From: an uncultured bacterium
GTDB taxonomy: Bacteria; Patescibacteriota; Gracilibacteria; Absconditabacterales; Absconditicoccaceae
Direction: 5' to 3'
DNA: 46,934 bases
NCBI GenBank assembly: GCA_903904875.1
Contig: CAIVEC010000006.1
Location: 1 to 46,934, forward strand
Positions 13,902 to 33,735 of the stretch are shown here, piece by piece. How positions within the stretch are numbered: the stretch's first letter is position 1; every line of letters begins with the position of its first letter. Position numbers and translations under genes: made by a program. The notes below the pieces were generated by a model. The model was given only the letters and a program-made list of their open reading frames with translations, searched no databases and was not told where the DNA came from.

Positions 13902-14025
13902 ATAGACTTTAGTTATTAGTCTTTAGACCTTAGCTAAGAACACTGACGAAAATTTAGTGTTCTTTTGCTTTTTTCAAGGAAATCATTATACTTAATACTG
14001 TTTATTTAGTGATCTTTTTGTGTAT

Positions 14026-17000
14026 ATGGCAAAAAATAAAAAAGGGAAGAATTCAAAACACATCGATCATGATGAGAAAAAAACTTCTGAAAAAACCGGT
14101 TCCAAAAAAACCAATATTTCAGATGCTTTTTTAGATGAACTCAAATGAGCTTTTGATAAATTTGAAGAAATCCCTGATTCCAAAAAAATAGAACTTTATG
14201 GTAATAATGAATACTTAGCGCAATTTTTGATCTATTTCGAAAAAGAGTATCCTGATCTGTTTAATAAGATAGATAAAAAAGATTTGCCAATCTATATGAA
14301 AGCATTGGAAGATAAAAAACGATTTTCATTTACTAATATAATAAAAAAATCTGAAACGATTCACAAAGAATTCTGACCTGAAGATACAGAACAGCATGTG
14401 ATGCAAAACAGCTTAGACAAATTACATACATTTTGTGATGACAACAAGAATAACATCCCTGCTGATGCTTTCAGTAAATTTGCCAGTGCAGCAGGTTTCC
14501 ATCCTACAACTCATGTCATCAATTTTGATGGCAAACTCAAAACCATCGATGATCTCTATCCGTTGTGGAATAAATTTCTGGAAAAAGAAGATATATCCCT
14601 TACCGATGCTGTCGCTGAAAAAGCTACGAAGATTTTAATCCCTGAATATAATCCTACAGAGAGGATCATAGTGGAGGTCGCTTTGAAAAAAATAAGGAAA
14701 GAACTTACCTGAAAACTCAAGACTGATTTTGATGAAAGATTCCCTTTACCTATCGATATTTTCAGTTCTTATCAGGATATCATCAGCTTCAAAAATGAAT
14801 GGATATCGTTCCTTGACGAACATCAGGCTGAGATCGATGGCAAACTCGCAAAAAAATTGGATGCTATCATTGTCACCAATGGTGATATTAAAAAAGTACT
14901 CTTGGAATCAGGAAGAAAATTCGATGATACGAAATGATTCTCAGAATGGGAACAATATTTCAGACGTATCTTCAATAAGCTTGCCACTCGCCAGCTGTTT
15001 GAAGAAGTCCAAAAGACACAGGAAACCATCGATCATTATCTTGATGCGATGGCCAATACATTCAAGGAATTCCCTCCGTACGTCAATGAGATTCTGCGCA
15101 TCTATCCCTTCAATGATAAAAATATTGTCGCTATCGATCCTTCATTCCATACTGATCTCGAACATATCGATATGCAGATTTCCGATCTTCAGCTTAACTA
15201 TTCTTCTGCTCCTGAAGATCAAAGAGCAGAATTAAGAAAACAAATTCATGCGCTCAAACAGGAAAGAGAATACCGCAGACGGCAAGCATATATCGCGTTT
15301 CTTAAAACCAAGGATGCTGCTCTTGCTGATATATTCACTCAATTGGTTTGAAGTAAATTTGATTTTTCCGTATTATCTCCGGATCAGCAGCAATTGCTTG
15401 TTAATACCCTCGTAAAACACAAACTCGAAGATACGATCAAAAATAAAGTCCCTGAATTGCTTTCGGTGACTGAAGAAGAGCTTACCCAATTTATGAATGA
15501 TCTTTTTGATCTCAAGAAGATGGATATCACTATTCCAACTAGAACTGGTCCTATTCCTTTGTCGTTCGTCAAAAAAGAATTTTTATCCAGTGTCCGTAAA
15601 GACCTTCTTGGAATCGATGATCTGGAAAATATCCAGAATCTTCCGCTCAATTTCGTCACGCAACTTACCGACAGCAATGCCGCGTTTTTTGAGGATAGTG
15701 CATCGATATTCGATTCGATATATACTGATTTCGTTGCAAGAAACTGAACAAGACATCGTATCAATGATGCGTATAAAGTCAGGATAAAAAAAGACGGAAA
15801 AATAGTCGAATGATATCTTTCTTCTTATTGTCCGATTGATGAGAAATATAATGATGAAAATTATGATGGAAAAGAATTGTTCCTGTATTCTGAACCAATC
15901 ACAGCGCCGAATAAAGAAAGGAAATTGGTCACCCGGGAAGGAATCGACGATGGAACTCCTGTTATCATCAAACATGATGAACAATGACAATGTGATATAG
16001 AGATTCTGGACAGAAAAATCAATCTCAATGGTGAAGCATTGTGAGCTTTGCTTTTCGGCTATGTACTCGGTCAACAGAGCAGGGAGATTTCCATGTCACC
16101 AGAAAAAGAGAAAGAATTGGCAGAAAAATTTAAGCAGCTCGGTAAACTTGATGTGTACAAAGAAAAAGAGGAATGAGAGGAAGAGGAACCAGAACCTGTG
16201 ACAGAAAAAGATGAATCCAAAGTCGAAAAATCAGAATATCAAAAATTTTTGGATGATCGAAAATTACTCAAATGATATACTTTCCCGGAAGAGAAATATA
16301 ATATTAAAGGTAAAGAAAATTTCGGTTTTGTAGAATGAACGAGATTGTTTGTCCCTTTTGCTGATAGCGAACTCTATCCTAAGAACGAATGAAAAGCATG
16401 GATACAGCTTGAGATCATAGAAATCAATGAACTAAAATGAACATTCAAGGTAAAAGTTCATGGTGGAGAATTAAAATTATGAGGCTCTGAATGAAAAACC
16501 AAGGAACTGGCTATGAATGCTTCATCATTTGAAGATATCAGGAAAAATTTCGGCGATATCTATAAGCTTCCTAACACCAAATGATTGACCATGGACGATG
16601 AGATACGTATGGTGGATTCATGATGATTGGCCAAAGATCTTCAAAAGAAACATTTGGGAAGCGTCCAACGAGATGGAAAATGATTTACGTTCGTTAACGG
16701 TGATTATGCCAATGATCCTGTTACTCACTTCGGTTTCTATGAGGCTGGAATCTGAGAATCCCATGATAAAGAAACCAGAGCAAATTATAGCTTATACACG
16801 ATCAAATATAATCCAAATGCCACCGTTTCTCTCTCAGGAGAATTTAAGGATGGTAATGTCATCAAGAAATATTTCCGTGATATGGATTATCCTACGTTTT
16901 TGATTTTTATCAAAGAAAAATGACTCCAACCAAAAAGCAAGGAACAGGCTGAGGATATGAAAAACAAACAGAAAATCGAGAATCAGGAAACGCCTACTAC

Positions 17001-19242
17001 GGTCCGCGGGTTCAGTATCAATAATATCATCGGTTTTTTCAAGAATTGATTTACCAAAATCAATGATGCTATCAAAAAATATGATGAAGAAAGAACGGAG
17101 GATTTGACTGATGCCCTTACTAGACAAGGTCAATTGTACGGAGATATAGGGAAACTCTTCGGTCCTTTTTCTAGGATTTCTTCCTCATTTGAGACTATGG
17201 GTGCAGAATATTACCTTGAGAGAGATAGTAGGATCTGGAAGAAGGTGGAAAAGCGAAAAAAATTCTATGAAGACGCTGATTTCTCATTGATCTATGAAAC
17301 TATCCTGAAACCTATGCTCCAATGACAGGTTACCATCAAACCTCATTACAAAGCCGCTGCGATATTGCTTGCTATGATTTCCAAAGGAAAATGACCATAT
17401 AGCAAAAATCCTGAATTCGCTGCAAAAGGTATGCGGGTCAATATCCTCATGTGACCTGCACATCAGCAAAGATATCTAGATATGCGTGAAAAACTCACCA
17501 GGGAACTTGAACAAGGTTCGGCTATGTATGGAGCCTTATGGACTGATAATAAGAAAAATGAAATCCTGGAACTTGAGATGAAATATATCGTCCATGTCAT
17601 GGATGGAAGACAGCTTGGAATACAGGATCAGGATAAAACAAAATATTATTTTTATGGAAAATATTCCAAAACATTCATCGATGAACTGGAAAAATGATAT
17701 ACTTCATTCTTTAGCCAATCAACGGTTGAAGACTGATTCGGAAAAGCGAAAGGCGCAAGCTTTGAATTTGCCAGAGGTGAATTTTTCAGATTTTTGCCTG
17801 ATAGGCCACAACAAGCGATACCATATCTCAGGGTGATGGCTACCAAGGCTATGAACGACAGTCAAAAAAAAGCGTTTGAAGTAGCTGTGATGGCAGGAAT
17901 GCTTTCCGGTATCTTTCTTACCATGACCGATTCTGAAACCCAATGATTTGTCCAAAAAATCTCTAGGACCATGTGATTTGTTCCTGGTATCCGGGTCAAA
18001 GATATCAATCAACAGACCAAATTACAGAGAATGCTTGATATCTTCAGCAACAGAAATTTCAGTACCTCTACAAAATATACCCCAGAAAAATTTTCCTTTA
18101 GGGATATGTCTGGAGGGACTAAAAATTTTGTAAAACGAGATGATCCTACCAAACCTTGAAAATTCGAACCATGAACTTTCCAAACATGGATATCCAAAGA
18201 TGATACTCTCACTAAATTGAGCAAATTCTTCAAAATCACCGGTGGAAATTTCGATAACAAAACATTGCTTGATATCTACGTAGATCCTAAGACTTCTCCA
18301 TCAGACAAAGCATTGATCGAAGAATTCCTCAAAAACACCAATGAAAAAAATGAAGCTCTAGATTCGGAGGTCCAAAAAAATCCTTCTGCACATACAGGAT
18401 CCATCTTGACGAGAAGCCAGAGTGCTGTCCAACAATTGATGAAATGCAAAAATGGATTTTTCGACGGTGCAAATACGGACGAAAATCAAACTATGCAGTA
18501 TTTTCGAAATAATGTCGCCAATGAGTTCCCTGCAAAAGAATGCAGTAAGGAAAGCGTGGATTTTTATCTCAAAAAATTCTTGAATCGGTTTGAAGAGAGA
18601 TGATTTACGTGAAGCGGCAGAACGATTTTTGTCAAAAGATTACAAACTGTCAAAAAATTGATGGCTGCTGGACGTCAAAGTGAAGCCCAGGATATCTTAC
18701 GATATAGTATCGTAGGAACAATCGTCAGAACTTTAAATGGAGCTGCTCCTCAAGAACTTCAAAAGTGATTGGAAGTGTTTATGAACTTTTTCAAAAGTAA
18801 TCTTAACCAGATTCTAGATTCTACCATGGTCAAGGATGTCTTTGGTCCCCAATTCGTTAAAGATAGTCAGGAACCGTATGAGTGCGGAGATTGGTATGAA
18901 TATATCGATAATTTACCGCAAAATGCGAATCTGGCTTTTGGCGCTGAAGGCAAGATAAGAGGCGCTATCAAGAAAAAATATGCTAATCCTAACTATATTA
19001 ATAGGGATATCTATAAATTGGCTGAGGATCTCTTCAGAAGTGCTGCCATACAAAATCGTTTCAATAATTATTATGTTTCTGAAAAAAAATCTGACATTGC
19101 CAAAAAATCTTCTTCTAAGGCTACCTGAGCTAAGATACAAAATCCTGAGGTAGTGGAAAAAGTAAGGCAAATTCTGGAAGGTAAACAGCCTTGAGAGATA
19201 TCTTTCCCGATAGAAAGTGAAGACATGTATGAAAATTACTAA
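14026..19242 (+). CDS. Giant uncharacterised protein (1738 aa)
   Basis: Single frame from ATG 14026 to TAA 19240..19242, interrupted only by TGA; more than eight track ORFs are in this frame; no recognised domain. Confidence 0.85.
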
Positions 19243-25844: not shown

Positions 25845-26705
25845 ATGACCATAGAAAAAAAGTATGGAAACATGAAAATGCTTTTTATAGCACTTGTGAT
25901 ACTCAATGTATTGCTTGGTATCTATATCGCATTTTTCAAAAGAGACGCATATCGATTGGAAACATTGAAAGTCGGTGGAACTGAAAATATGAACATGGCA
26001 ACCCAATTGTATAAGTCAGATACATACAAACAGCAACAGAAATCCACGCTTGAACAGATTCTTGGTTCTATGAACCAAACTGGTACAACAGCTCAAGCTA
26101 ATACTACTGCACAAGCAGATACCACTACAACTACTGCTACTCAGTGAGATGCATCAAAATTTGCTGCTATCGAAAAAGACGGTTACATCAAAGGAAATAA
26201 GAATGCAAGAATCACTATCATAGAATATTCTGATCTGATTTGTCCTTTCTGCAAGAGACATTACAGTGCTCAGACTCTCGAAAATCTTGTAGCAAAATAT
26301 CCTAATGATGTAAATATGGAATTTAGGAATATGCCATTAGCACAACTTCATCCTACTGCTCCTATCTGAGCTCAAGGTGCTATCTGTGCTGGTAAACTTG
26401 GAGGAGGTGATAAATACTATGCATATATCGCTGAGGCGTTTAAAGCATCAGAATTCACTGAAGATAGTACAATTGCTATCGGTGTAAGTCTTGGTCTCAA
26501 TAAAGCTAAATTTACTACTTGTCTTACTAGTCCAGAAACTATAGCAACTGTAAACGCTCAAATACAAGAAGGTCAAGCGTTCGGTATCAATGGTACTCCA
26601 GGTAATCTCGTCGTAGATAACCAAAAAGGCACCTATACATTGATAGCTGGTGCTTATCCTGCTGAAACTTTTGAAGCTGAAATCACTAAAATCCTTGGAA
26701 AATAA
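25845..26705 (+). CDS. Membrane-anchored DsbA-like thioredoxin-fold oxidoreductase, paralog 3 of tandem trio
   Basis: Same N-terminal module as paralog 2, then GNKNARITIIEYSDLICPFCKRHY (CPFC) ... GQAFGINGTPGNLVV; joins 25845..26147 through TGA, 286 aa. Confidence 0.88.
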
Positions 26706-26766: not shown

Positions 26767-29637
26767 TTACTTACTGATCTTCTCTTTCTGGAGTTCGTAT
26801 TGGAGTTCTTCTATATCTTTCTTAAGTTTGTTCATCTCTCTTTTTTTCTCCCTGATTATATCGGGGTCTGCACCGCTTGATGAAAGGCTAGGCATCATGG
26901 TCCTGATAGCCTGGAGTTCTTGCTCTTTGGCACGTAAGGCTTCACGGAGATCTTCTTTTTTGTTGGTGACCACCAAAACTTTACGTTGCACTTTGATGCC
27001 TATCGTGATGTTGATGATGCTTTCGGTATGATATTTACCGAGTTCTTTTTCGTTTTCGAGGTATTCGATCGATGATGCGTTGATCAGTTTATATATTATT
27101 TTTTCCTGTTTCCTGAGGTATTGCAAGAAGTCCAATGGTGCGAAAAAACAGATATCCACTTCCTCATGCTTTGCATAGTCGTATTTCTGCTTCATCCCCA
27201 AAAACTTATCTATGATATCCATAAAAAGCTGTGTCTTGTAATTTTTGCTGATGCTGGTAAGGTGCTCTTCTATCTGCTGTACTAAGATAGGTCAGTCAAA
27301 TCCTAATTGTTCTCGTGTCTGTTGCGTTATAAACGGGATGAATGGATGCAAGAGTTTCAATAAGCTTCCTAGGCATCGTAATGTCACTTTACTGCCGTTT
27401 TCCGTATCGTGGTATTTCTGGATTTCCAGATATTTGTCGCAAAAATCCTCTTTGATCATAGTGATCATCTTGTGCTGGATTTCAGGAATCGCGTTTTTTG
27501 CCAGAGCTTCTTCATACTCTTTTTGGAGTTCTATGGTCTTGTAGATGATCCAGAGTTCAAATTCACTTAATGCACTTTTTCTCTTGTCCAAATAGCTTTT
27601 CAACTGCCCAAAATCAGAGATTTTTCTTGTTCATTTCTTATCATACAGATGCTGGCCGACAAATCTGGATGCGTTTCGAAGCTTGCTTATAAAGTGTTCA
27701 TACTCCGTGATATCCTGACTAGGATCTCCTGCATAGAGTCTGGTGCAATCCGTTCCGAAATTTTTGATCAGTTCTTTGAACGGCTCTTTATTTTTTTTAC
27801 TGATTTTCTGTTCTTTCTGGATATAACAGGTGTCGAAAAGTATTTTGTCTTGGATATTATATCCTATGATAATGGTTTTGAGAAATTCAAAAATATTATG
27901 TTCACTGATGCAGAATATCTTTTTCGGCTCTTTCTTGCTTTCACTGAATGCTTCCATCATTTTTATCAGAATCAGCGCATGACCTAGTGTTTCTTCTATT
28001 TTTTCTTTTTGCTGGACGAGTCCTTCGTCATTGCTTACGAGAGTATCTATATCCAGATTATAAAATCATTTTTTCTTGCTCGACATCGCGATGGATTTTT
28101 CCAGGAAATTCGTCAATCCTATAGAAAACTTTTCGAATTGACTCATTCATTTTTTCTTTGACAGGACTGTCGCCTTTGCAGGACCAAGGTCCTTTTCCGT
28201 GTATTCCACTATTTTTTTCAACTCATTCAGCTCCTTGCTGTATCCTCTTGGTAGTGTCTCGCTGAACAGCTCGATATATGCTTCCAGCGTGCTCTGTTCT
28301 CCGGTACGGCTTTTTCCAAGCAAGACATCTATGCATTCCTCAATGCTGAAATACTGTCTGAGGCGTCTATCGACGATAAGATTGAATATGATGAGTGAAA
28401 GTACTGTGAATTTATTCTTCGTCTTTTTGACAGGCAGATTGAGGAGTTCGTTGTCAGAAATGAAATAATTTTTTCCGCTTTCGCTTTTCCAAAGCGGCAA
28501 GGAATATCCCTTGGAATCTTCCTTGGTGACCGGTCGATATTCTATTGTCTGGATCATATTCGCGATATTCTCTTCGTATTTTTCCGGGATGATGGTGAGT
28601 TTTTTTTCTTTGATGGCTGTTTGGATATTGCTCATTTCCTTATCTATCTTGATGAATAACTGGTTGCAGAGGAGCGGTCGCGCTCTTTCGCCTGTTTTCC
28701 TGTGTACAGCGACTTCAGCTTCGGTATATTTTGTACCTTCGAGGTTATGGATATCATCGAGATTCTTTACGATATTCTTTACGAATTCGCTTGCATTCTT
28801 GCCGCAGAAATCACCTGCTGATTTGGTGAAACATCCGCTTTTGTCGATAGCGAATTTATCTATTTGAAGTCCGTGTTTCTGCGCTATCATCAACGATCTC
28901 TTATCATGTGCCGGCGTGATTCTGATAATTCCTGTCCCTTTGGTCGGATCCACGGATTCATCTGCTATGATAGGGATGGTCTTATTTACAATCGGTATGA
29001 TGACTTTATTTTTTACCAATTTTTTGTACCTTTTGTCATCAGGATGCACCGCAAGCGCCACATCGGCGAAAATAGTTTCCGGCCAGAGTGTCGGCACGAT
29101 CAGTGAAATATTTTTGGTGTCTACGAAATATCTGAGATTGTATTGTTTGACCTGCATTTTTTTCCGTTGTAATTCATCAGTACCCAGTGTTTTCTGTTCC
29201 TGTATGCTTCGATAATTGATCGAACAGTCTTCATAAATGCGTCCTTCCTGCACAAGCTCCACAAAAAGATTTCTGACAAAATTCGTATTCCTTTCTGAAT
29301 AGACGACATTATCGGTATCGATACCGAAAAATATTCCTGCTTTGGTCAGGAGATTCTCATAATTCTCGGTTTTGAGATTTTTGTCTTCCGTATCAAAAAT
29401 AGGCAATAATTTCGCCTTGATTCATTTCATCATCAGATAGGTAGCAACCATATCTTCTTTGATGAGTCCGCTGATCGAATCCAATGAGGTATCTTTGGAT
29501 ATGGTGATCGGCAACTGTGTTATGACTGTTTCCCGTTTGGTTGCATCTTTTTTGGTCGTGAAGAGTTTCTGAAAATAATTTTTTTTGAGAAGTTCTGATT
29601 CTATGGAAAAATGATTATATTTTTTTTTGATATCCAT
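26767..29637 (-). CDS. Valyl-tRNA synthetase-like protein with degenerate synthetic active site
   Basis: 956 aa in one frame; editing-domain WPETIFADVALAVHPDDKRY and GTGIIRITPAHD; HFISKL(CGA)NASRFV; LLHPFIPFITQQT(CGA)EQL; C-terminal coiled-coil; HIGH region reads TSLDSISGL. Confidence 0.85.
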
Positions 29638-29794: not shown

Positions 29795-31441
29795 TTAATT
29801 TTTGGAATATCCGTAGAGTTTGTAGATTGTATATGCAAATAAGCTTATCAAGATAATAAGCAGAATGTTTTCTACCGGTCCTGTCTGTATCTTTTTTACG
29901 CTAGATATATTGAGCGTGGTTCCGTCTTTACAGATTCATTGGACGAGATAATATGCATATGCTTCTTTTTTGGAAAGTTTATTGAACGGGTATTCAAACA
30001 TCGTACCTGTTGTTTCTCCTACTTTCTGCATACTACTTATTTCGCTGGTTTGGAAATCCGACCTATAGATGACATATTTTTCTATATTGTTGACTCAGGT
30101 CCGCATAAGGTAATATTTTTCACCGATCTGTCAGGTGGTCACGTTGATGCCAACTACAATACAACTGGCATCTTCTCCTACTTTTGCTTGGGTCACTTCA
30201 GAAGGCGTACCGGTAGGGTTACCTGCACTATCGAGCGGAGTGATCTGGAAATAATAGGTATCTCCTACCGTGAGGTTTTCTATAACGATTTGATTGGTTT
30301 GCACGGTAGTAGTAAGATTGAGATTGTTTTCGCTGGTTCCATAATCGAGTCTGTATTGTGGTATGGTTCCTAGAGCTTCTCGAGTTACATTCAATTTCGT
30401 CTTGTCGATACTATCAGAATATAATCTGATCTTACCGATAGCATTTCCTGTCTCTACAAGGATTGTCGCTACACCGGTATAACTTTTTGTCTGTCCTAGC
30501 ACGATAAGATCCACTCCTACTTGGAGACTTCCTACAGTATCCATTACTATTTCTTTAGTGAAGACTCATGCGCTTTTTTTGTCCATAGGAACTGATTTTC
30601 CATCACTCAACTTTATCTGGGCAGAAGTCACGCTATCACTGCTATTGACCGTAAAGGTCGCTTTTTCTCATTGTTTGAATGTTCCGTTAGGTTCTATCTT
30701 GATGCTATTAAATACTCCGTCTTGGATAGGTTGATAACCGAAGGAAACAATCTCGGATTCACCGATCACTTCGTTGTTGACGTTCAGAATCTTTATCTGG
30801 AGGATATTATCTCACTGAGTTATTCCGCTGACATAGGCGCTGATATCACCGTTTGCATTGGTCACCCCTTGTGAAACGGAATTATTGTTTATATAGATTT
30901 CATATGGCGCGTTAGGCAATGATGGTGCGGTTGCCATGACATTAGCAATCTGATTTTTTTCTATTCAGCCGGGAACTGGAGAAATCAGCGATATCGTTTT
31001 TTCTGCCGTGGTATTTGTTGTGGTACCTACGATCACTGTCTTTTGTCCTATAATCGTATCGTTGATGATATCTGATACTTTGATGGTAAATGTTCAGGAT
31101 TTTTTGATGGTTAGTCCTTTGGAAAATAATTTTACTCCCTGATCTTGTGGAAGGAAGGTATAGAGTCCGTCACTTGGTACGGTATAATCTGCAGTATCCA
31201 CGATACCTACTATTTCGATAAAGACATCGCCTTGGTAGTCTTTGACGATATCACCGTTTGCTGTTACTGCTTTGATGGTGATATCCACTGCTTCGCCGAC
31301 ATCAAATGAACTTGGTACGACTTCAACGATAAACGCGTCCGGGTTAGCAGCATGCACATTATTGTTTGCTACAAATCCAACTCCGAGCATACCGATAGCC
31401 AATATGCTTGCTATAAGTGTTTTGCGTGAAAATTTCATCAT
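29795..31441 (-). CDS. Secreted surface protein with Ig/FN3-like domains and TGPVENILL C-terminal tail
   Basis: Signal peptide MMKFSRKTLIASILAIGMLGVGFVANNNVHA; fragments 31094..31441 and 30131..30544 in one frame; tail VKKIQTGPVENILLIILISLFAYTIYKLYGYSKN; 548 aa. Confidence 0.8.
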
Positions 31442-31465: not shown

Positions 31466-31972
31466 TTACTTAGAGTGTGATGTTATCTCATTGAGTGATC
31501 CGATAGATAAGTTTTTTTGTCCCACAGCTATCGCTTCGCTCAAAAGGATATCTGTCATATCTCCGCTAAACGGCAACAATACTGCACTCTGTGTCTTGTC
31601 GATAGTTCCGTTCGGAGTAAATTGGATGACTATGTTATTTTCATCAGGAGTCTTTGCTATCCGTGTTCCTTGTCCACTGAGATTTGCTGGATCTATCGTA
31701 ACCGTATCTTTATCGAAACTTATCGTAAAATCTATGCTTGCCGGAGTTTCCAATTTTTCTGCCATAAAGATATCTACATATCCGCTATTCGTCTTATACG
31801 CTATGTCTCGTCACTTTTCGGCGATAAATGCTTTTTCCTGGAGAGAAAGCACGCTTGCAGTAAAAAAATCCGGATTCTTGACAATATAGAATAATCCGAA
31901 GGCAACCAACGCCGCTCCTATGATGATACCTATATTCTGTTTCCAGCTTCAGAAGAATTTATTTTTGCTCAT
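31466..31972 (-). CDS. Membrane-anchored protein, possible cohesin-like domain
   Basis: MSKNKFF(TGA)SWKQNIGIIIGAALVAFGLFYIV...FTISFDKDTVTIDPANLSGQGT...; 168 aa. Confidence 0.6.
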
Positions 31973-32355
31973 TTTTTTCTCCAAACAGATAAAATTTCCG
32001 CTTTTTTAAGGTATATAAAATAAGTATGTTTTTTGTTGTTAAAATCAACTATAAATTAGCTCAAAGTCAACTTTATTCTTCTAATATTTTTTAAACGCTC
32101 CGCTGGGGTCACTTTTTGGCATTGCCCTTCGTGCCTCAGGATTAAAACCCCAAAAACTGACGAAAAAACTCTAGCCAGATGCAAAACTCAGGACTATTAT
32201 TCCAAATACACATTTTCTACCAACTCGACTCCGTCCCACTTGCGGTGGGTCCCACTTCGTCTCGTTCCATTTTACTTCTTCATCTAAAAATCGCTCACTA
32301 TCTCGTGGTGTGCATCTGTCGGATGTAAAAAAGTGAAAAATAAAATAAATTTGTT

Positions 32356-33735
32356 TTACAATTCCACTTGGTCTTTTATGCTTGGTATTTCACATGTGAA
32401 GCCGATTTCTTCAAGTCTGGATTTCAGTGCTATTTGTGCGTTCCCTTCTCCATGGATGATGAATGTTTTCTGAGGCGGTTTCGTAAATCCTTTCGCCCAT
32501 CTCAAAAGCTGATCACCATCTGCATGTCCGGAAAATCCGTTTATCTTTTCTATCTCTGCATTCACATCAACTTCCATTCCCATCATCCTCACTTTTTTCT
32601 CTCATTCCAGGATATATCTTCCTAATGTTCCGTCCGCTTGATAGCCTACGAACAATAACGTATTTTTTTTGTCTCGAAGTCCGTGCCTGAGATGATGTGT
32701 AATCCTTCCTGCAGTACACATGCCATTCCCTGCTATGATGATGCAAGGATCATTGTAGGTATTCAATTTCATCGAATCTTCGACGCTTTCCATACATTCC
32801 AATTCCGGAAAATCAAATGGATGAGGATATTTATGTAATGCTTCTTCATCGAAAACTTCCGTATGCTTTTTGAATATTTCTGTCGCTTTGATGGATAACG
32901 GGCTATCCAAGAAAATCTTTTCTGCTGGAAACTTTCCTTCTTTGATGATGATATTGTAGAAATAGAGGAGTTCCTGAGTCCTTTCTACGGAGAATGACGG
33001 AATCAAAAGTTTCCCTCATTTATTGAATGTCTCTGTGGTATATTTCACCAATAATTCTTCCTTGCCTGCTGTGTCCTCATGTTTTTTGTCTCCATAGGTT
33101 GATTCTATCAGCAGATAATCTGCATCTGCGATCAATGTCGGATCCTGTACGATAGGCGTACCTCGTTGTCCTATATCTCATGAAAAAACGATCTTGGTTT
33201 TCTTGCTTCATTCCGTCACGAAAAGTTCAATGTTCGCTGATCAGAGGATATGTCCCGCATCATTGAATCTTGCCTCGATATTTTCATTCAGTGTGAATGT
33301 TTTTGTATATTCAATCGGACTGAAGAACTTCTTGCACGCTTTTGCATCATCAAGCGTATACATAGGCACTCTCGGTTCCTGATGATTTTTTTTTCTTCTC
33401 CTATTTTCGTCTTCGATATTCTTTTCCTGGATCTCCGCACTATCTTCAAATAAGATATTTGAGAGATCTATGGTCGCTGATGTCGCATAAATTTTTCCGT
33501 TGAATCCTTGTTTATATAATTTAGGGATCAATCCGCAGTGGTCGATATGGGCGTGGGTAAGTAATATAAATTCTATCTGCTTGGGATCAAAAAGAAATGG
33601 TTCGTAATTCAACCTTGTCACTTCTTTCGGTCATTGGAACATCCCGCAATCCACGAGAAATTTTGTCGTTCCCGTCTCGATGTAATAACATGATCAGGTG
33701 ACGATTTTGGCTGCTCCGCAAAAAGTAAGCTTCAT
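32356..33735 (-). CDS. MBL-fold beta-CASP ribonuclease
   Basis: MKLTFCGAAKIVT(TGA)SCYYIE; LLTHAHIDHCGLIPKL; AGNGMCTAGRITHHL; NTLLFVGYQADGTLGR; NGFSGHADGDQLLRW; IIHGE. Confidence 0.93.

Follow-up and report, generated by a model that had tools for sequence, protein, structure and literature searches.

A valyl-tRNA synthetase paralog lacking the aminoacylation motifs, and most likely the editing centre, is retained under purifying selection in the Absconditabacterales

A 46,934-nucleotide stretch of DNA from an uncultured member of the Absconditabacterales (contig CAIVEC010000006.1; hereafter the window) carries a paralog of valyl-tRNA synthetase (ValRS) which retains the fold of the enzyme, has lost its aminoacylation centre and most likely its editing centre as judged from the residues at both sites, and has been kept for a long time under strong purifying selection despite this catalytic loss. 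We interpret it, with moderate confidence, as a neofunctionalised, doubly dead ValRS that was repurposed as a non-catalytic factor and would act by binding tRNA.

The gene (P0003) lies on the minus strand at 26767..29637. Translation with table 11 was rejected, as five TGA codons interrupt the frame, which becomes a single open-reading frame of 956 codons once UGA is read as glycine; the coordinates and strand given in the initial annotation are thus correct, but only under a changed code. A codon-column comparison showed that CGA and CGG in the Absconditabacterales stand where relatives encode Trp (TGG): in the family's intact ValRS genes almost every scorable CGA/CGG column is Trp, outgroup families show Arg, and reassignment of both codons to Trp has been published for Absconditabacteria (PMC8629427). 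With CGA read as Trp (W654) the anticodon-binding helix KLWNASRFV is restored, an exact match to the motif first reported for this protein. The separate, archaeal-type valS of the source genome (G000) uses 12 CGG codons, all on Trp columns, and a single TGG, which suggests that the reassignment is advanced in this UGA=Gly plus CGA/CGG=Trp code. A count of tRNA genes in G000 gave 35.

The ValRS fold and domain order are present throughout the 956-aa paralog, as indicated by profile matches, predicted models and Foldseek, and the claim that it is a full-length ValRS relative is borne out. Its best NCBIfam matches are valine--tRNA ligases (NF004349, 1.3e-82), its Pfam matches are Anticodon_1 and tRNA-synt_1 and its PDB sequence match is the T. 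thermophilus ValRS structure 1gax (E = 4.9e-29), which Foldseek also ranked first for both predicted models. AlphaFold2 reached a pLDDT of 75.5 from 12 degenerate sequences and 84.5 from 24 sequences that included intact relatives, the latter model possibly being pulled toward the intact fold; the Rossmann fold is still predicted despite the motif loss. Bacterial ValRS (class Ia, NF004349/TIGR00422; 1gax) is the nearest known protein in sequence and fold, and shares with the paralog its length and domain order, the CP1 editing-domain fold (residues 164-300; 28738..29148, minus strand), the anticodon-binding helix bundle (residues 652-795; 27253..27684, minus strand), and the C-terminal junction (796-884) and coiled coil (885-956; together 26770..27252, minus strand). 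Unlike bacterial ValRS, the paralog lacks HIGH, DHAG and KMSKS, has its editing Asp and Arg replaced, and falls far below the curated ValRS cut-offs (278 bits vs. 704, and 256 bits vs. 612 for TIGR00422). No transmembrane (TM) segment was found in the 956 residues.

The aminoacylation motifs were read from the columns of a 73-sequence family alignment. The HIGH-equivalent stretch QLPITISKDTSLDSI (residues 41-55; 29473..29517, minus strand) is modelled as a loop (42-51) between a strand (37-41) and a helix (52-70), and the HxGH column aligns to S51-L52-D53-S54, so that both His are replaced by Ser and the Gly by Asp; the loss of HIGH noted earlier is thus confirmed, but the two His are replaced by S and S rather than by D and S. 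The alignment at this column is validated by fossils of the motif kept there in two degenerate copies, HLGH in G010 and HLGN in G022. A string search found neither HxGH nor KxSKS anywhere in the paralog or its closest orthologs, including any intact HIGH displaced to another part of the protein, whilst both motifs stood at the expected places in 29 of 29 intact control sequences checked. A GHA string (EETLGHALIL, near residue 548) was rejected as a candidate HIGH, being confined to close orthologs and away from the motif site. The family alignment also upheld the two other replacements described from the sequence alone, LLPIFDTEDKN at the DHAG region and KISKK for KMSKS (residues 611-615; 27793..27807, minus strand), the latter drifting to KTNKK, KSGKR, KNTKK and KTTKK among orthologs that are 75-82% identical. 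With HIGH, DHAG and KMSKS lost, the motif alignment supports the proposal that this protein cannot activate an amino acid in the usual way.

The CP1 fold is present and the initial annotation was right to recognise it, but key catalytic residues are changed and the suggestion that editing is retained finds no support. In the family alignment S248 (28894..28896, minus strand) stands where class-Ia editing sites have a conserved Asp (D279 of T. thermophilus ValRS, which on our alignment we take to correspond to D342 of E. coli IleRS and D345 of LeuRS); this column is Asp in every intact copy, but Ser, Gly or some other residue among the degenerate copies, two poorly aligned ones excepted. In T. 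thermophilus numbering the editing site of the paralog reads T214 T, R216 W, T219 T, K270 R, T272 T, D276 D and D279 S. The T-x-R-P-E-T motif is therefore TLWPET, with T, P, E and T kept and R216 replaced by W185 (29083..29085, minus strand; from the family alignment and the Trp codon correction), and the apparent Arg of G004 at this site is encoded by CGA and is hence also Trp. More distant orthologs have lost TxRPET altogether. In IleRS (D342) and LeuRS (D345) the Asp anchors the alpha-amino group of the substrate, its mutation cripples editing, the IleRS D342A change lowers editing and T243R/D342A serves as an editing-dead mutant (PMC9023258). By analogy, the editing centre of the paralog is most likely lost.

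A free-standing trans-editing factor, in which CP1 would hydrolyse some mischarged tRNA through the altered chemistry of a K270R, D279S/G pocket, could account for several features of this domain. CP1 is the best conserved part among degenerate copies, the pocket residues T183, T188, R239, T241, H244 and D245 are largely kept within the genus and near genera, K270R is common to the better-aligned degenerate copies as if the pocket had been re-tailored, and IleRS provides a precedent for class-Ia editing in trans (PMC9023258). However, the Asp that anchors the amino group is gone, R216 has become Trp, the TxRPET motif is lost in nine genomes (G009, G011, G017, G019, G020, G021, G024, G029 and G030), and the functional archaeal-type ValRS has intact editing motifs of its own, all of which make a trans-editing role unlikely.

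The source genome encodes that archaeal-type ValRS at C11:46767-49157, an 804-aa protein without a coiled coil, with HIGH, KFSKS and the editing Asp in place (PRK13208, 821 bits). A second canonical valS, which the initial annotation had proposed looking for, is therefore present, and its reading of the gene as a paralog is supported over its alternative of an extremely divergent ValRS: because the genome has this separate, intact enzyme, the gene is a paralog and not the ValRS of the cell. That the paralog is itself an active but extremely divergent ValRS draws on its conserved fold, yet the joint loss of HIGH, DHAG and KMSKS beside an intact ValRS leaves this with a very small probability.

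Across the 36 genomes of the family surveyed, several of them incomplete and not independent data points, the degenerate gene was found in 24, representing about twenty genera, and it coexists with a functional ValRS in 23 of these 24. The accompanying enzyme is archaeal-type in 19, another bacterial ValRS in three (G004, G021, G030) and the intact ValRS of the family in one (G033); in the remaining genome (G009, 73% complete) the degenerate gene occurs without a detected functional ValRS. The other 12 genomes have only the bacterial ValRS of the family with its motifs intact, and a replacement ValRS without the degenerate gene was seen in none of the 36. In G031 only a C-terminal fragment of the degenerate gene was seen, at a contig edge. 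The complete genome G033 (RAAC1_SR1_1, CP006913; L077, L035) combines an intact family-type ValRS with a degenerate copy, and the archaeal-type ValRS was not found there, unlike in its congener G026. The third, bacterial type occurs in place of the archaeal-type enzyme in G004:C16 (L090) and G021:C1 (L069), with a fragment in G030, and in G004 and G021 is related to the ValRS of other families of Gracilibacteria.

Such regular coexistence would be expected of a non-catalytic partner of the functional ValRS, acting for example in regulation or by supplying a coiled coil in trans, which the archaeal-type enzyme lacks. Three unrelated ValRS types are found beside the paralog, however, which argues against a specific co-evolved partner and renders this reading improbable. 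The coiled coil in trans is further disfavoured by G033, where the full-length ValRS beside the paralog already has a C-terminal extension.

The degenerate copies have a single origin: 23 copies form one clade in a CP1 tree (support 100/99) and 21 form one clade in a tree of residues 652-956 (SH-aLRT 98), although long branches call for caution in both trees. The nearest intact relative of the degenerate clade in the CP1 tree is the ValRS of G015 (91/70).

Among seven close orthologs of the degenerate gene dN/dS was 0.085 for the whole gene, with no region exceeding 0.146, compared with 0.071 for the functional ValRS; synonymous sites are close to saturation, and the ratio is biased upward by this. 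The parts favoured by selection are the CP1 fold, the C-terminal junction and the signature of the anticodon helices. Between genera, CP1 identity is 0.47 among degenerate vs. 0.60 among intact copies and that of the C-terminal junction is 0.28 vs. 0.30, whilst the two halves of the Rossmann fold fall to 0.17-0.19 vs. 0.46-0.55. In the anticodon-binding domain W654-N655 is present in all degenerate copies and R658, Y736, E738 and K741 in most (a WN..R, Y-x-E..K signature); the residues of T. thermophilus ValRS that contact tRNA are presumably K581, F588, L650 and E651. The signature is weak in G017, G020, G021 and G030, whose copies have diverged most, and given this decay binding of tRNA-Val may not be general across the degenerate copies. 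A decaying pseudogene would explain the free drift of the catalytic motifs and the split open-reading frames in G005 and G026 (the latter with ambiguous bases in frame), but 21 open-reading frames are full length, dN/dS is low even with its upward bias, and about twenty genera with genomes of ~1 Mb have retained the gene, so that decay is very improbable.

A non-catalytic binding protein is the best explanation because the chemistry of both sites appears lost, yet the protein evolves almost as slowly as a working enzyme, and tRNA binding is the most economical retained function because of which parts are conserved. We envisage that the ancestor of the Absconditabacterales had one normal bacterial ValRS, and that aminoacylation then passed to another functional ValRS, which in most descendants is of the archaeal type. 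The old copy, situated near a gene for a membrane fibronectin type III (FN3) protein, would have lost its adenylation motifs and editing Asp while the gene was retained. Its product would now bind tRNA and perform no chemistry; the likeliest ligand is tRNA-Val or Val-tRNA-Val, which would be gripped by the anticodon bundle and the C-terminal domains while its CCA end sits in the altered CP1 pocket. The product could thereby serve as a carrier, a sensor or a sequestering factor in a process tied to envelope proteins that are probably co-transcribed with it.

The FN3 gene (29795..31441, minus strand) encodes a 548-aa protein with a signal peptide, FN3 and a C-terminal TM segment, and is the conserved upstream neighbour of the paralog on the same strand. 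The degenerate gene lies directly downstream of it in 22 of the 23 genomes that could be resolved; among 21 loci measured, 20 have the two genes on one strand with a gap of 30-160 nt, and adjacency in G005 and G026 was taken from neighbour tables. The exception is G020, where the paralog lacks the FN3 neighbour and abuts a FemAB-like gene. In most of the loci examined the FN3 gene is itself preceded by a gene for a 172-aa protein with an N-terminal TM segment (TM172; 31466..31984, minus strand), and a DsbA-like membrane-anchored thioredoxin-fold gene (25845..26705, plus strand) is the convergent neighbour in genus g1, G010 and G022. None of the 12 genomes with the family ValRS only has an FN3 gene adjacent to intact valS, and in several of these the FN3 and TM172 genes adjoin a homolog of MltG (in the order MltG, TM protein, FN3). 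The tree of FN3 proteins agrees with vertical inheritance of the FN3 gene together with the paralog. In G015, which has only the intact gene and is the nearest intact relative, the FN3 gene lies ~2.7 kb from valS; the adjacency may thus be partly inherited, and the pairing probably began as such proximity and was later kept.

FemAB enzymes modify the envelope using aminoacyl-tRNA. In G000 (L009:3929-4924; C11, about 49.2-50.2 kb), G001, G002, G006, G007, G008, G010 and G026 the gene after the archaeal-type valS belongs to the FemAB family, and in G004 a FemAB match is found near the other ValRS. Co-occurrence with FemAB was rejected as an association signal, as the family is present in 35 of 37 genomes and ubiquitous in the class.

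These neighbourhoods bear on an envelope-associated factor, either a scaffold or partner of TM172/FN3 with vestigial tRNA binding or a donor of Val-tRNA to a FemAB-type transferase. The near-constant FN3 adjacency, set against the MltG setting of FN3/TM172 in several genomes with the family ValRS only, speaks for it, as do the FemAB genes beside functional valS in several genomes and beside the paralog in G020, and cyanobacteria have a membrane-tethered ValRS (PMC4893482). We nevertheless consider it unlikely, as the paralog has no TM segment, G020 lacks the FN3 adjacency and the presence of FemAB is uninformative in this class. The narrower idea of a Val-tRNA handling factor tied to the envelope operon, which would pass tRNA-bound valine to FemAB-type modification or sense charging for envelope growth, is more doubtful still.

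The tRNA-binding pseudoenzyme that we favour differs from the known systems nearest to it. HisZ and YadB are likewise aaRS duplicates retained for a different job, and are shorter than the enzymes from which they derive. In contrast to these repurposed paralogs of HisRS and GluRS, respectively (PMC7373986), the protein described here preserves an entire class-Ia ValRS, CP1 included, with both chemical centres changed. YbaK, ProXp-ala and similar trans-editing domains would resemble the paralog, if it edits, in having an editing-type fold apart from aminoacylation, but they are single catalytic domains and the paralog is a full synthetase fold without the editing Asp. The cyanobacterial ValRS that is anchored by its own CAAD membrane domain (PMC4893482) also ties ValRS to a membrane complex, but it is an active enzyme, whereas the paralog has neither TM segment nor catalytic motifs and its membrane link is only genetic. 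The open-access literature searched yielded no description of a ValRS pseudoenzyme or a tRNA synthetase duplication in Absconditabacteria, and the main text of the Vampirococcus genome paper does not mention tRNA synthetases.

Other aaRS duplicates have taken on new roles, but we found no account, in the literature searched, of a ValRS deprived of its synthetic centre and, judging from sequence, of the editing centre too that is under selection as a full protein order-wide, in genomes of ~1 Mb. Intact valS, the partial HIGH fossils of G010 and G022 and complete loss form a natural series for the transition from enzyme to non-enzyme. Absconditabacteria (SR1) are tiny parasitic or predatory bacteria of the CPR, mostly uncultured, and the paralog may point to a new tRNA-linked process in them. 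Automatic annotation can label it valS, and ValRS genes are then miscounted.

Two further genes in the window were noted. A beta-CASP RNase at 32356-33735 (minus strand) has as its best NCBIfam match the CRISPR Cas14 MBL-CASP family, at a sub-threshold 420 bits (cut-off 800), and a 1740-aa open-reading frame at 14020-19242 (plus strand) contains 37 in-frame TGA(Gly) codons.
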